Source: Prostheceraeus crozeri
Taxonomy: Eukaryota; Platyhelminthes; Polycladida; Euryleptidae
Direction of reading: 5' to 3'
DNA length: 64,000 nt
Assembly: GCA_907163375.1 (NCBI GenBank)
Contig: CAJQUW010000944.1
Location: 55,940-119,939, forward strand
Numbering within the stretch: position 1 is the first letter of the stretch; each line of letters opens with the position of its first letter. The notes below the pieces were generated by a model. It worked only from the letters and a program-made list of their open reading frames with translations. It ran no database searches and had not been told where the DNA came from. Below, in pieces: positions 7,193 to 40,277 of the stretch. The position numbers and the translations under genes were made by a program.

Positions 7193-7842
7193 ATAGCAAT
7201 TTATGACTCAAAACAGACATGCATAATAATGAATATCAGGAGTTGCAAGTGTGTTAGGCTCGGTATTATCGTATTGCCTAACCCTTACAACCATTTATAG
7301 GTCGGTCTTATTACAAGTGCTTAGCTGATATAAGAGTTTCTTTGGATTATCTTTAATTGATTTCTTGTTTCTTACTGTTAGCAAAATTTTCCATTCATAG
7401 ATATCATGCGTATGTAATACACTAAGCATTCTTTAAATTTTGATTAGGATTAAATTTTTGTACTTGTACATACAAGGTACGATCAATAATGTCCCGGACT
7501 AAAGGTGAAAATGAAACGATACGTCAAAAATTCTTTCACAGATCGAAAGAGGGTGTCTCTTAGGCCCCAGAAATATATTCCACGAAATTTTGATAATTAG
7601 CTTTTTATTAAAAAAGACTTATATTTTAAAATGATATTCACACGAAAAATTGAAGCATTGAGACTCTGACTGATGAAATTCCCGAACGTCACTGCAAGTA
7701 TTGTTGTATTATTGTCAAACTGTCAGATGAAATAGTTGAATAAATTGATTGGTAACAACTGATGACGCAATGCACAGTCATGCATCATGATTCTTCGCAA
7801 TTCACTTGAAGTGAACAGTCTTCTATCAAATCTCAACAGATG

Positions 7843-7897
7843 TAACCACCACGAGACATGTTTCGGCCTGTTGAGCCTCATCAGTCGTGGGTAGGTT
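7843..7897 (-). ncRNA. Type I hammerhead ribozyme
   Basis: The minus strand shows every conserved core base: CUGAUGA (7884-7878), stem II GGCU/GGCC with loop CAACA, GAAAC (7864-7860), then AUGUC with predicted cleavage after GUC, between 7855 and 7854. Stem I is six perfect pairs, UCGUGG (7854-7849) with CCACGA (7890-7885), followed by an internal loop and a second GGUU/AACC helix. Stem III is tiny (AC-AU-GU), as in the hammerheads reported in metazoan retroelements and small circular RNAs, which often act as dimers through a palindromic stem III. The ribozyme follows directly after a tRNA-like B box, as in the schistosome Sm-alpha SINE-like repeats. Activity is inferred, not shown. Confidence 0.88.
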
Positions 7898-7965
7898 TGA
7901 ACCAGCGACGTTGGAGCTAGAGGACGTGCAAGCATACCCTCTAACCACAAGGCCACCGGACCATC
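7893..7965 (-). mobile_element. tRNA-like SINE head (Pol III A and B boxes), minus copy
   Basis: The minus strand reads GGTCCGGTGGCCTTGTGG then TTAGAGGG, an A-box-like TGGCCTTGTGG (7955-7945). About 50 nt later comes a B-box GGTTCAAACCT (7903-7893). This is the internal RNA polymerase III promoter of a tRNA-derived SINE. The hammerhead ribozyme begins at once downstream. The downstream limit of the SINE body is unclear and may reach about 7650, where the mariner left TIR ends. Confidence 0.75.
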
Positions 7966-8014
7966 TGTTGAGAGCGCGAATTAGCCAGGAAGGCACTGCT
8001 TTAACGCAGGCACG

Positions 8015-8082
8015 TGGATGGTCCGGTGGCTTTGTGGTTAGAGGGTATGTTTGCATGTATTTTAGCTCTAACGTCGCTGGTT
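8015..8082 (+). mobile_element. tRNA-like SINE head, truncated plus copy
   Basis: This is a second copy of the same tRNA-like head, in opposite orientation and about 50 bp away. It has an A-box TGGCTTTGTGG at 8027-8037 and matches the minus copy with scattered differences up to the first bases of the B box (GCTGGTT, ending 8082). It then stops abruptly and mariner transposase coding sequence resumes, so the ribozyme part is missing. The two heads form a head-to-head inverted pair. Confidence 0.75.
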
Positions 8083-8890: not shown

Positions 8891-9407
8891 GACATATCAT
8901 TTGTAACGTTTCTGAATTTCCATTGCTATTCACATATTCAATTATTATTCATGTTGTTAAATGTGCTACATAGATATTCTTGATGCATTCGGTTCTTCTA
9001 TGATTTTTTTTGTGTGAATATCAGTAAAAATATGTCATTTTAAAATATGAGTCTTTTTTAATAAAAAGCTAATATCAAAATTTCGTGGAATATATTTCTG
9101 GGGCCTAAGAGACACCCTCTTTCGATCTGTGAAAGAATTTTTGACGTATCGTTTCATTTTCACCTTTAGTCCGGGACATTATTGATCGTACCTTGTACTT
9201 CTGTCCAGTTGATTTTTCCTCTGACAAAGTTGAACGCGAAAATTCGGGAGTTATAGAATCTCAACTTCGCTTGTTCTAATTTTGCGGAGTGAGGGCCTTA
9301 CACCAACTTATTGCTGAATAATACACACAAAGTTAGTATGTACGATATCTATCATGCAATTCGAATATCTACTCTAAATTTGTCATCAATCAACTAATTA
9401 TACTTAT

Positions 9408-10735: not shown

Positions 10736-12454
10736 TAATTGGCGCTATCATTTAATTGCAACCATTTGTCATCGCCGTTTCAATAAAGCAATTCTTGATC
10801 TAGAGTTATTCATTCTGCTATTTCAACCTTCAAGTAACCCCTTGACTGCTAACAAGAAAATTGACAAGAGGCAGTGTGGTTCGGATGACTAGGTATTTCA
10901 GTCATATGAATATTCCCGTCATGTGCAGCTTGACTAGTCCACCTTCGCATGATACTCGTATAATTAGCCAATAAAGCAAACATTAGAGAGGGGCGAAGAA
11001 GTTCCATGCTGTGCGAGGATCTTATGCGGCACTGTGGGGAGAATAATAATTATGCAATTGACAAGTCTGTTCAGATAAAATAGGCTATGCGATCAAAGAG
11101 AGATGACAAAGGACGATGACCAGTAGATAAATAGGAAAGTTTCATGTCAAAACATCTCATTGTCGATTTGATGTAGTGCATTTATGTGGGATTATTGTTT
11201 TCATGTATTAATTTGCACTGCTGTCATTGTGCTTTATCTGAGGGCGAGGCGCTGTACGTGGTGAAAACACTTAGTGTACTTGAAATGATAAATTTGCATT
11301 TCACCTCATTTATGGTATATGTATCTTCTTCTCTTTATGGTGCATATTTGACTATATTTTAACAAAACTTCAAATATGATAAATATCTTATAGTTTTCGT
11401 GATATAAAATATCGGAAATTAATAAAATATAAACTATCGGAAATTAAATAGCAAAGAATTGTAGCTTCTGGCTTTTTAATTAATTATTTTGATAATCATT
11501 TTGGTAATATGCCGCTGAAAATTAATTTTGATATTTTACTCAATTTCAACCTGAGCCAGGTTCCTTTTCATGTTGGAAGAATTGCTTTGCAAACGATCAA
11601 AAACTTGGAAGACAAGAAGAACACTCTATTTTTTTTAAAGCAGTGCAAATTGTATGTACTGCTGCCAAAAACCATAAAGAATCTCAAGTTGCCGTCCTAT
11701 TTCTCTAATATTTGAGATCTTCACGCTGGAAAATTCAGTGGCCGACATTAAACTCGATGATTAGATTCACTTACGGTACAATATCAAGAAGTAGAGATAA
11801 ATGGATTGAACAAGAAACTAAGATTCATGATGAATATTCAACTGCCAATGAAACATCCTCTATCTCAGCAACAATGCATCGCGCGTATCAGAATGGTAGA
11901 AATACATAATGCCATGTATTACGCAAAAGATTCTATAAATTGACTGCAAAAAGTCAATCATTCAGTTCAAGAATTAGAAACAAAAGAAATCGTCAAATAA
12001 CAATGTCGAATACAAGATCTTCTCAAGAAATGAATGATGCAGTTGATCCTCGCGACATTCTTGTTACAGATAAGACGAATACTTTGAACGAAAGTGAACT
12101 TCCACTTCTCTCAAAAGGATCAAAGTTCGCCCTTTCACCTCCTGTGAATCAAAGTACGATAATTGAATTCAATGTGCAATTCTGCAGATCTGCCCATCAA
12201 TTTCGATGGAAAAGTGGTCTTGAAAATCGAGACAACTTAAATCCAGAAAACGGAAACATATTAATGAAATACCCATGGGACACGAGGCTAAAAATGTTAC
12301 CTACTGACACTGAAAATGAAGACAAGTTGAAACGATTGTACTTTATTCATACTCAAGGAACCAGCCAGAACGAAATTCAATAATCTCACATACATGTAGG
12401 CCTACTAGGAACAACAGATATTGAAAAATATGAAAAATAAACCCATCAATTTTT

Positions 12455-13415
12455 TTGCCAAATGATAAGGGGTCCGAATTCTGCTCAGTGCACACACCAG
12501 AATACAATGACGCTGGAATAAATCATCTCACGGATGCTTCCACCTCCCGAGGAATATCACACATAAATTCTTCAACAGTTAAAAAACGAATCAACAAGAC
12601 ATGGAAAGATATATCAGCACAACGCAACATTCCAGGCACTGAATTGCGTATTCGACCAATTGTCTCCAACTGTAATGGACCGACGAAGCGACTCTCGTGG
12701 TTAATGACTAAATTACTATCCCCTCTTCTTACTAGAGTTCCGGTACATCTTGAAAACAGTAAGACTCTTATGGAGTGCATCAATAACATTAACAACAACA
12801 ACAACAATCACCAGAGATTGCTTCCATGTAACTTCGATGTTGTTTCATTATACACTTCGATCCCAATCCAAGATGCTGTCCAAAATATCAGAGATAAACT
12901 TGAACCATCATCGAATTTCTACACTGGCTCCTTTCTTTCCTGAAGACATTTACACATTGCTAGAAATTATTCTCGTGAATCCATATTTTGCCTTCAAAGG
13001 TCAAATCTACAAGCAAGTATGTGGCTTACCGATGGGTTCTGCCGTGTCTGGAATATTAGCTATTCTACTCTTAGATATAATTGAACAACATGCTCTACGA
13101 ACTTTCGGCAACATTTCTCTCTTCAAACGATACGTGGATGAATGTTTTGCATTAGTATCCAGTTTTGATGAAGCTAATGATTTGCTTAACATTTTGAATC
13201 AACAGCACCCAAATATTCGCTTTGCAATGGAGAGTTCAGTAGATGGAAATTCACTGAGCTTGTTGGATTTTTCTGTGACAATGTCTACCAATAGTGAGCC
13301 TCAATTTCAATTCTCTAAGAAACAAGCAAGAAAAAATCTCATTGCTCATTATGATTCACATTCACCAATGTATGCGAAAATGGCAATAGTGAAAAACAGA
13401 AGAAATCGAATCTAA
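12455..13415 (+). pseudogene. Penelope-like reverse transcriptase
   Basis: Two overlapping frames make up the RT. The first has RIRPIVSNCNGPTKRLSWLM and FDVVSLYTSIPIQDA (palm motif A, catalytic Asp present). The second has QVCGLPMGSAVSG (motif B), then LFKRYVDECFA at motif C. At that position the usual catalytic YxDD reads YVDE, so the second Asp is lost. The later motif LSLLDFSV is also present. A frameshift near 12900 separates the frames. RT copies element RNA into DNA at the target. Loss of the second Asp plus the frameshift argue against activity. Open frames at 11509-12383 lie where the N-terminal part should be but have no motif I know. Confidence 0.85.
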
Positions 13416-13469
13416 GAGAGGTGCAGCAGTCCCAAAAGCCAGCAGAAATATCAACAAGAACTTGATAGA

Positions 13470-14040
13470 ATGCTTTCAAACCATCGTTATTCAAGAAGTT
13501 TTATTGAGCAATCAAAACGTAAGAACAATCGACAAAAACGCAGAGACAACAACCAAAACTACATATATCTGAGGCTACCACTCTTGTCAGATCAAACGGA
13601 CAGACGGTTGAAACAAATATTTCGCCGCGAAGGGATCAACTTACGAATTGCCCATCAGACACAAGCCCTCAGGGGCTATCTCTGGAAAAATGCTGAACCT
13701 CCTCCTTGCGCATTGAATAACTGCCCAGTCAACAACAACAAAATATGGAACCAAAAAACACAGTGTATCAGATTCAGTGCTCTAACTGCTTTTCCACATA
13801 CATAGGCAGCTCCATCAGACCTCTACACCAAAGGATAAAAGAACAAATCACTCGTCCCGAATCGTCTGTATACCGCCATCTAAGAATATGTTATGCGAAT
13901 GCAATAAGAACAAAGATCCTTGCCACTGATTCAGACACTGCCCACTTAAGACAACGATAAGCCATTTTTATACAAAATCTATGTCCAGCATTAAACTCAA
14001 GCGACGAAAGTGAAATGCTTCGGGATTTTATATTCCTTTG
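13470..14040 (+). pseudogene. Penelope-like C-terminal GIY-YIG endonuclease
   Basis: After a linker with YLRLPLLSDQTDRRLKQIF and a C-x4-CP pair (near 13715), the frame shifts. It then reads VYQIQCSNCFSTYIGSSIRP: a CxxC pair and the GIY-YIG core, here as YQI...YIG, followed by LHQRIKEQ. This nuclease makes the nick used for target-primed reverse transcription in PLEs. Further residues such as FIQNLCPALN near 13975-14005 continue the domain after another break. The order RT then GIY-YIG is as expected. Confidence 0.82.
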
Positions 14041-25459: not shown

Positions 25460-26402
25460 CCGTATTTCTTTGAATATGAGACGCCCTTGAATAAGGGACA
25501 CCCTCGAATAAGAGACGCATCCGTGAGAGGAAAAAATTTAATAAGAGACGCCCTTGAATAAGGGACTCCCTCGAATAAGAGACGCATCCGTGAGAGGAAA
25601 AAATTTAATAAGAGACGCCCTTGAATAAGGGACTCCCTCGAATAAGAGACGCATCCGTGAGAGGAAAAAATTTAATAAGAGACGCATGTACAAAAAATAG
25701 ACTGCTATAGACATATTACATGCAGGCTATTGTAATGTGTTAGCTATATCCGCCTGAGCGATTATTAGGCCTACTTATCTTAGTAAAATAAGTCAGTCTA
25801 CTAGTAAAGACCGGGTATCATGACCAATATTGTATAATATATAAGGCTTCTTGTTGTTGTACATGCAGTACATGCATGTTGTACATACGTACATGCAGGC
25901 CTACTTAAGGTTACTTCATCTACCATTTAAGGAGGCATTATACGGTAGCTTCCTTTGCATTTGGAGTCATGTACCGGTCGGTAACCTTTGCTGTAAATAC
26001 TACTTGATTATCGGTATTTTCGTTTCGGTAAATTCAGATCTTGTCTACATGTATAGTGGCCAACATGTACTGGTATATGAATGTATTAGATGAGTCTACA
26101 AGATATGCTACTACAAACCATAAAACTCCTTTCATTTCCAAAATATCTGAATTATGATAAAGCGTATATATGTAAGAAAAATTGCTGGCGAAATTTGCTC
26201 ATGACATAGGCCTAAGTGAGGAATGCAAAGGTTACCTAAGAGAATAGTAGCAAAAAACTAAGACATCTTTAATGAAAGAATGAAAACTTGAACATTTGAT
26301 AAATAAGAGACGCCCTTGAATAAGAGACGCCCCTGAATAAGAGACGCATCAATCAGGGATCTGAAAAAAATAAGAGACGCGTCTCTTATTCAAAGAAATA
26401 CG
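25460..26402. mobile_element. TIR element with subterminal tandem repeats
   Basis: The left end reads GCCGTATTTCTTTGAATATG then AGACGCCC. The right end reads GCGTCTCTTATTCAAAGAAA then TACGGTA, the complement. GAATAAGAGACGC-type words are densely repeated just inside both ends (25470-25690 and 26300-26395). The centre has no transposase. This layout, a short TIR with arrays of the same word beneath it, fits a non-autonomous DNA transposon whose transposase binds the repeats. The target duplication is unclear. Confidence 0.7.
25483..25684. repeat. 67-bp tandem repeat, three units
   Basis: The marker ATCCGTGAGAGG falls at 25519, 25586 and 25653, giving an exact 67-bp period. Each unit is itself built from 17-bp sub-units (AATAAGAGACGCCCTTG, AATAAGGGACTCCCTCG) plus a TCCGTGAGAGGAAAAAATTT tail. 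Units two and three are almost identical, so amplification was recent. Confidence 0.88.
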
Positions 26403-39826: not shown

Positions 39827-39890
39827 CCAATAATCCGTAGTAACAAATAAACACAGTAGATTCAAACTTTCGTGTGTATTGGAGAAAGTC

Positions 39891-40277
39891 ATGAATCAGC
39901 TACAATCCTTGTTGCACGAAGCCCTGATTGAAACTAGACATGTGTCAAACTGTGCTATAATTCGCCGCAAAGATTCTACAATTCGAGCTTCATCGGTTGG
40001 TTTCAATCTCTTTCCAGAACAAGTTCAGTCCTTGATAGAAGCATTCAAAAATCCTCCACAGACTAGAGAGGATGGTGTTTTATTTGAAAATAAACTTTAT
40101 AGATGCATAAGGGCAGACAAGAATGCTATTTACGCGAAATCAAGCAAACGCGGTCTTATAATGGTGCGGACTAACACACTTTTGATCGTTGCAACCTACA
40201 GTGACTCGATGCACCCTAGCATATGTGTGGAAGCATGTGAAAAGTTAGCAGATTACTTTAAGGAAAAGGGAAAGTAG
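39891..40277 (+). CDS. PFN4: Profilin-4
   Basis: A 128-residue profilin-fold protein, close in length to mammalian profilin-4 (129). It starts MNQLQSLLHEALIETRHV and keeps family blocks GFNLFPEQVQSLIEAF, LYRCIRADKNAIYAK, GLIMVRTNTLLIVATY, and the end CVEACEKLADYFKEKGK. Profilin-4 is a divergent profilin reported to bind phospholipids more than actin or poly-proline, with a role in sperm development. The frame is open four codons further upstream but begins there with TTG; the ATG at 39891 matches the known N-terminus. The whole coding region is one exon, whereas I recall several coding exons in mammals. There are no stops or shifts. It could be an old retrocopy or an intron-poor lineage form. 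An X-box-like site upstream suggests it has a promoter. Confidence 0.93.
   Translation: MNQLQSLLHEALIETRHVSNCAIIRRKDSTIRASSVGFNLFPEQVQSLIEAFKNPPQTREDGVLFENKLYRCIRADKNAIYAKSSKRGLIMVRTNTLLIVATYSDSMHPSICVEACEKLADYFKEKGK

Follow-up and report, generated by a model that had tools for sequence, protein, structure and literature searches.

A 303-bp hammerhead retrozyme of a polyclad flatworm, probably inserted by Penelope-type machinery from a single monomer circle

Metazoan non-LTR retrozymes are described, in the passages available from PMC7229834, as tandem repeats of 170–400 bp that carry a type I hammerhead ribozyme and have a GC content under 45–50%. According to parts of a 2020 review (PMC7761336), the repeats of animal retrozymes contain no conserved motif that would reveal their copying partner and seemingly no promoter, and for a plant retrozyme an LTR promoter has been reported at the level of an abstract. 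Mobilisation of retrozymes by Penelope-like elements (PLEs) has already been proposed in print (passages of PMC7229834, PMC7761336 and PMC11722881). The PLE copies described in excerpts of PMC3846280 carry inverted pLTRs, one of which has a 31-bp tail, together with a 9-bp duplication. For an anole PLE, sections of PMC11167929 report two adjacent internal start sites of the reverse transcriptase (RT), explaining the tail, and an enzyme with a preference for AT-rich DNA that cuts both strands and extends them. Schistosome Sm-alpha repeats, finally, are tRNA-like SINEs that carry a hammerhead (PMC2770079, in the passages available). The element described below bears on two questions, namely which partner copies animal retrozymes and how these are transcribed.

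The window, i.e. the whole stretch of 64,000 nucleotides of Prostheceraeus crozeri DNA that was analysed, contains a 259-bp damaged copy of a small mobile element with many copies. The features of this copy and of its host are the following (positions in the window are those in locus record L001 plus 6299):

7824..8021, minus strand: retrozyme minus arm, monomer positions 301 down to 104 (99% by BLAST against the 303-bp monomer; locus L001)
7831..7973, minus strand: 12-bp stem and the domain that it encloses, containing the hammerhead and the A/B-box rod (inverted repeat; fold)
7844..7897, minus strand: hammerhead with outer helix I and the intervening internal loop (fold; HH9 alignment)
7849..7890, minus strand: type I hammerhead core with 6-bp inner helix I, predicted cut after 7855 (GUC)
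7893..7903, minus strand: B-box-like motif GGTTCAAACCT (motif scoring)
7945..7955, minus strand: A-box-like motif TGGCCTTGTGG (motif scoring)
8017..8082, plus strand: inverted partial second arm, monomer positions 160–225, 89% identity
8083..8890, plus strand: host of the insertion, a mariner-type transposase without its upstream part (Pfam Transposase_1, DDE_3)

An earlier note on this DNA had described a type I hammerhead with conserved core bases on the minus strand, having a 6-bp stem I, a second helix and a palindromic stem III, and cleaving itself after GUC at 7855. All of these elements were recovered: CUGAUGA, GAAA and GUC are present within 7849–7890, the second helix corresponds to an outer helix I in which AACC (7894–7897) pairs with GGUU (7844–7847), helix III is the palindromic ACAUGU, and the predicted cleavage point is located after 7855. 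Helix II consists of 4 bp, including one U–G pair. The claimed fusion to a head likewise stands, with A/B-box-like motifs and ribozyme both on the minus strand and the hammerhead following the B box. The region is closed by a 12-bp stem between 7831–7842 and 7962–7973 (inverted repeat I2), and 7831–7973 folds at –62.4 kcal/mol (z –5.16), a stability equalled by 0 of 200 shuffles. The interval 7843–7965 that had been delimited for the element encloses the A box, the B box and the hammerhead and misses the closing stem and the inverted head at 8017–8082, and the description of the element as complete does not hold for the window copy, which is truncated. Where the two arms meet head-to-head, 5 bp belong to both the inverted head and the minus arm, and about six of the seven differences between this head and the unit look, by eye, like C-to-T changes. 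A match to MIR169_6 overlaps the inverted head pair and was accounted for by that pair.

Two homologues of the mariner host extend upstream of about position 8081, where the window turns into the retrozyme, and both of them lack the retrozyme insert. A clean empty site or duplication was not obtained at the mariner because the 5′ part of the window's own copy is missing. Inverted repeats of 38 bp that are 95% identical lie at 7600–7637 and 9032–9069, and may mark the termini of the mariner copy whose 5′ part is missing. Elsewhere in the window we noted a 67-bp tandem repeat (25473–25685; 3.2 copies, 98% matches) and an open frame of the profilin family (39834–40277; E 1.5e-36).

An Rfam search of the window yielded no match at the gathering score. 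Hammerhead_HH9 did match the window copy with 29.7 bits (E 2.8e-5), a score below the cutoff of 52. The intact monomer scored 33.5 bits (E 6.2e-7), likewise below the gathering score. Within the window, a loose core pattern matched four times against 1.47 expected, and 7 of 100 shuffles reached as many. The matter was settled by searching the genome (2.05 Gb in 14,165 contigs), where a strict hammerhead pattern returned 2,292 matches (1,214 + 1,078) and 0 + 0 in reversed controls, and a looser pattern 1,757 + 1,637 matches versus 12 + 26 in controls; in viral contigs, a strict hammerhead pattern had 0 matches. In the units examined, the hammerhead core is unchanged in 212 of 214 hammerheads, so that other genomic copies with a conserved core, on which the earlier note had made its proposal depend, are present in number. 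These genome-wide matches confirm the window hammerhead as real, and self-cleavage is predicted for it. Covariation support is thin because at least one helix II pair is broken in 12 of the 16 variants listed, with one clear compensatory change (GACC/GGTC for GGCC/GGCC).

In its intact form, the element measures 303 bp and is composed of an A/B-box-like head, the type I hammerhead, with its predicted cut after monomer position 270, and the 12-bp closing stem, and units of this kind occur in tandem arrays in the genome, which bears out the multi-copy, retrozyme-like nature that had been suspected. The monomer has a GC content of 50.5% (76 C and 77 G in 303) and, judging from its size, presumably carries no coding sequence. 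On one contig (C46), the retrozyme cluster is found three times with a spacing of 5,833 bp, as a larger duplication. A pattern for the head matched 1,033 + 802 times in the genome and 0 + 0 times in the controls. In the comparable part of the matches listed, a strict hammerhead stands at the expected offset from 52 of 72 heads and an exact head stands alongside 52 of 97 hammerheads; head and ribozyme therefore usually travel together.

The motifs that we take to be the A box (TGGCCTTGTGG) and the B box (GGTTCAAACCT) are each one mismatch away from the Pol III consensus, and 28 of 1,500 shuffles score as well as this pair at tRNA-like spacing. ARAGORN detected no tRNA in the window or in 55 loci, Rfam gave no tRNA match in the stretches tested, and the A/B-box region folds as a rod and not as a cloverleaf. 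The tRNA-promoter head proposed earlier is therefore to be understood as a set of A/B-box-like motifs (7945–7955 and 7893–7903) and not as a proven tRNA relic. The unit contains no TTTT, which is unremarkable as 958 of 2,000 shuffles lack it as well, and the missing TTTT was for that reason dropped as a sign of Pol III read-through.

The structure of the insertions was established from 37 parsed loci, three of which were later completed, and one added locus (L061). Among the 37, L003, L022, L024, L030 and L046 are not head-to-head. Nested arrays (L045, L049), arrays at contig edges (C716, C6711) and duplicate records were excluded from the insertion counts, as were the head-to-head insertions L044, L047, L050, L053 and L055, of which one end falls outside the sequence retrieved for the locus. 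Both ends were visible in 28 head-to-head insertions. In 25 of these, exactly one arm stops at monomer position 301–303 and the other at 28–35, which corresponds to arm ends 31–33 nt and 61–68 nt beyond the ribozyme cut; in L048, the plus arm is just a 35-nt tail piece. The remaining three comprise L051 and L061, which have no tail, and the truncated window copy, and an insertion with two tails was found in 0 of the 28. Where the target is (AT)n, overlap between flank and tail often makes the second end appear at position 35. The retrozyme tail measures 29 nt, and the insertions follow the pattern of PLE integration, with two starts, inverted arms and an AT-rich target.

Orientation was counted in the first 100 of the 2,292 matches (ordered by contig, not by similarity), where opposite neighbours within 700 bp are head-to-head in 15 cases versus tail-to-tail in 2. 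Fifteen of 29 insertion sites lie within (AT)n. At 11 of the 14 sites outside (AT)n, the two flanks share an exact word of at least 10 bp (10–16 bp, possibly including a few element bases), a length reached by 1 of 182 mismatched flank pairs. The target duplications of metazoan non-LTR retrozymes, where there are any, exceed 4 bp, and these words agree with that. Shared flank words also accompany the single-unit insertions L022 and L046. A comparison of the left flanks of 37 of 38 insertions (L044 having too little flank) revealed no second copy of one locus and one pair with an 85% repeat in common.

PLE-like RTs are abundant in the same genome, with 18,599 first-look candidates, 150 of which were scored. 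Two long PLE copies that were opened, one encoding an RT and a GIY-YIG domain (L076) and the other an RT, have their arms head-to-head, one of them being longer by about 43 nt; just beyond this extra piece stands a 12-nt word that recurs in the other flank. The looser hammerhead pattern led to a PLE family with a hammerhead of its own (C249; RT match E 1.6e-8, GIY-YIG match E 0.0054, below cutoff), whose GAAACATGTC matches that of the retrozyme. This family ends 33–35 and 62 nt past its own cut, compared with 33 and 62 nt for the retrozyme. Its second end had been predicted in advance as ...GCGTAAA. The match in the C249 copy extends beyond the common end by about 5 nt, 11 of the 41 matches listed stop at the far end plus one T (which can be supplied by the (AT) flank), and all four opened copies (L083–L086) show GCGTAAA followed by AT-rich DNA. 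Another member (C5881) is head-to-head, with ends at 33–35 nt (two bases being common with the flank) and 62 nt. The tails of the hammerhead-PLE and the retrozyme could be aligned such that only 6 of 5,000 shuffles were as good, the similarity between cut and second end is weak (102 of 3,000 shuffles as good), and over the first 80 nt 548 of 2,000 shuffles did as well. We read these comparisons as pointing to a common machinery, with descent not proven.

Tandem PLE units occur as well: hammerheads of C249 lie 2,653 bp apart, 99%-identical units of C2743 lie 2,703 bp apart, and 79%-identical relatives are spaced by 2,678–2,679 bp, four of them in C5605. As for other candidate partners, BLAST against 14 PLE loci gave one 14-nt match (E 5.1), and local alignments with one PLE (L067) were at shuffle level. 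The RT of this L067 element is 75% identical to the PLE fragment of the window, and a minimal hammerhead-like motif with GUU replacing GUC is located downstream of it, at about position 2599 of the locus. The window fragment itself (12434–13805) consists of broken RT fragments (RVT_1, E 1.3e-4, below cutoff) that are Penelope-like by our own reading. A further hammerhead family, CTGATGATGGTATGACC...GAAACATGTC, was seen on C17, C116, C202, C208 and C317; in one opened copy of this type (L080), the sequence gives way to (AT)n some 40 nt past the cut, and the family was rejected as a tail relative of the retrozyme, 913 of 2,000 shuffles being as good.

Templates and joints were counted in 32 insertions taken from best-match listings (40 of 603 and 39 of 649 candidates scored), a sample that is biased to young copies because of this origin. 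The template analysis left out units below 93% identity or shorter than 60 nt and covered 29 insertions whose two arms both contain units. Ten of these 29 have a private substitution (fixed in no other insertion) that is shared by 90% or more of the units covering its position in both arms, as in 7 of 7 units of L047, 12 of 12 of L056 and 13 of 14 of L055; the 19 insertions without a private mark are uninformative on the template. Among insertions with at least two covering units, the subfamily mark 6A>C is carried by every unit or by no unit in 21 of 22 (the exception being L044, with 18 of 19 units) and the mark 148G>A in 27 of 28 (the exception being L042, with 19 of 21). Substitutions present in part of the units number six in L043, three in L051, two in L042 and one each in L026 and L041. 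As private variants run through both arms, one 303-nt RNA templated each such insertion. This single template would most simply be a circle, and tandem arms made from one monomer point to rolling round a circle. The same sharing of private variants could, however, be produced by gene conversion between the arms or by polishing of the assembly, and in L043 units seem to have been duplicated later within the array, a further caveat for the template reading.

The 5′ breakpoints of the arms are scattered over the unit (Rayleigh p 0.40), with 4 of 64 lying within 6 nt of the cut against 2.7 expected (5 of 64 in an exact recount). Eight of the 64 read as position 1 and may reflect short unmatched pieces of the unit, as may several of the apparent fillers. 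Microhomology of at least 2 nt was observed at 12 of 17 filler-free joints when measured by BLAST overlap, with 15% expected, and at 6 of 9 joints when measured by exact extension, so that the outcome depends on the measure; the exact recount overstates filler because extension halts at any mismatch, subfamily marks included. At one locus (L002, about 1785–1790), the arms are joined exactly at ACATGT, which is common to helix III and monomer positions 29–34.

We consider it probable that the element is a non-autonomous, SINE-sized retrozyme of 303 nt that is inserted by PLE machinery from a single monomer circle. In the early part of such a cycle, for which transcription, cleavage, circles and the use of Pol III are predicted from sequence, units would be transcribed into multimers, plausibly by RNA polymerase III from the A and B boxes, after which the hammerhead would cut the multimers to monomers and a host RNA ligase would close these into circles, the latter two steps being suggested by the intact structure and by relatives. 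The later part is strongly supported by the structure of the insertions, with a PLE protein as the presumed actor: a Penelope-type RT/endonuclease would cut both strands of AT-rich DNA about 10–16 bp apart, and each free 3′ end would prime inside the RNA, one at 33 nt and the other at about 62 nt past the cut. Both cDNAs would run round one monomer, often several times, giving rise to the tandem arms, and would stop at scattered places to be joined head-to-head, sometimes via short microhomology. In the insertions, the tail signature of PLEs stands at almost the distance from the ribozyme that it has in a PLE of the same genome, and double-strand target-primed reverse transcription templated by a circle is directly testable with the 303-nt RNA and purified PLE protein.

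The template might instead be a linear multimeric transcript of an existing array, copied by PLE machinery. Arrays are present as sources, and the anole PLE takes up and inserts uncut RNA in vitro, with ribozyme mutants being without effect (sections of PMC11167929), so that its enzyme does not require circles. However, mixed arms are expected from an array multimer with one mutant unit, and both the private variants found throughout both arms in 10 of 29 insertions and the subfamily marks, uniform within 21 of 22 and within 27 of 28 insertions, disfavour such a multimer, leaving it unlikely in our estimation. The head-to-head arms could also stem from a single PLE-type cDNA that primes itself on an antisense template, a mechanism that palindromes at head-to-head joints led others to propose for rotifer PLEs (PMC3846280, in the passages available). 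A near-symmetric minority of our joints would suit this hairpin or self-priming model, with arms stopping within 10 nt of each other at 8 of 32 joints (exact) where about 2 are expected. At the other 24 of 32, however, more than 10 nt separate the stops of the two arms, so that most joints show the asymmetry to be expected if the two cDNAs were made independently, and in 25 of 28 insertions the 3′ end of one arm differs from that of the other. With cutting and extension of both strands moreover seen in vitro (passages of PMC11167929), we regard self-priming as a quite improbable origin of the arms.

Long arrays at contig edges (C6711) and the apparent secondary unit duplications inside L043 would agree with a satellite DNA that is amplified by unequal crossing-over or extrachromosomal circles and later inverted. 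Such a satellite is already poorly compatible with defined ends, target duplications, the head-to-head bias of 15 to 2 and the shared flank words around the single-unit insertions L022 and L046, and as the main route it is refuted by the PLE-matching ends, so that we give it hardly any credence. Twin priming during target-primed reverse transcription of the LINE type likewise yields inverted 5′ parts, and the window holds other RT fragments, but twin priming leaves one true 3′ end, whereas here each arm has a defined 3′ site, with about 29 nt between the two. As the two ends of a PLE family of this genome moreover lie at almost these distances from its hammerhead, a LINE-type origin appears extremely improbable.

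The preferred reading, in which PLE machinery copies a single monomer circle, can be extended to PLEs themselves, although we put this extension forward tentatively and would sooner doubt than accept it: Penelope reverse transcription might at heart be a form of circle-copying, with hammerheads making the circles and an RT dimer rolling round them. As a circle has no 3′ end, the RT would have to start internally, and the dimer would serve each of the two cut DNA strands from its own start site, the two sites lying side by side on one circle. The tandem PLE units of C249, C2743 and C5605 would fit such circle-copying, which the in vitro insertion of uncut RNA does not call for. If true, it would explain the PLE tail, tandem units, inverted arms and hammerheads together, and retrozymes would represent the minimal template of the PLE machine.

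In the open-licence PMC literature, we found no report of a retrozyme with PLE-type ends, with head-to-head arms or with a single-template signal, nor of an internal Pol III-type promoter in an animal element called a retrozyme. The passages of PMC7229834 do not mention SINE, Pol III, tRNA-like or A box, and use the word promoter twice, in connection with T7. The design of a tRNA-like head plus a hammerhead, in which the earlier note had seen a possible new SINE family, is as such not new, because schistosome Sm-alpha elements are already described in these terms (PMC2770079, as far as its available passages go).

By its hammerhead type and tandem size, the element is a metazoan-type non-LTR retrozyme. 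Like the members of that class (passages of PMC7229834), it is tandem, carries a type I hammerhead, is strongly self-paired and coexists with PLEs, and it differs from them in its A/B-box-like head, in its GC content of 50.5% (a marginal and descriptive difference), and in its head-to-head arms, two fixed ends and single-template signal. Plant LTR retrozymes share the hammerhead and the circular RNA that is predicted here (excerpts of PMC4918200, PMC9695139 and PMC12029980), but differ in having a type III hammerhead, LTRs and a length of 600–800 nt (PMC7229834, same passages). The schistosome Sm-alpha and Sj-alpha, described as tRNA-like SINE-like repeats, likewise carry a type I hammerhead; the available passages (PMC2770079, PMC8490949) do not mention PLE-type ends. 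Compared with a tRNA-derived SINE, the ends of the present element instead fit PLE anatomy. PLEs also have head-to-head inverted ends, a 30–40-nt tail at one of the two sides, 9–10-bp duplications and AT-rich targets (parts of PMC3846280 and PMC11167929), as well as a hammerhead upstream of the RT start sites (PMC11167929, in part). However, PLEs encode an RT and usually a GIY-YIG domain, and we do not file the element as a PLE because its 303-bp unit is far too short for both, even though at integration it behaves like one.
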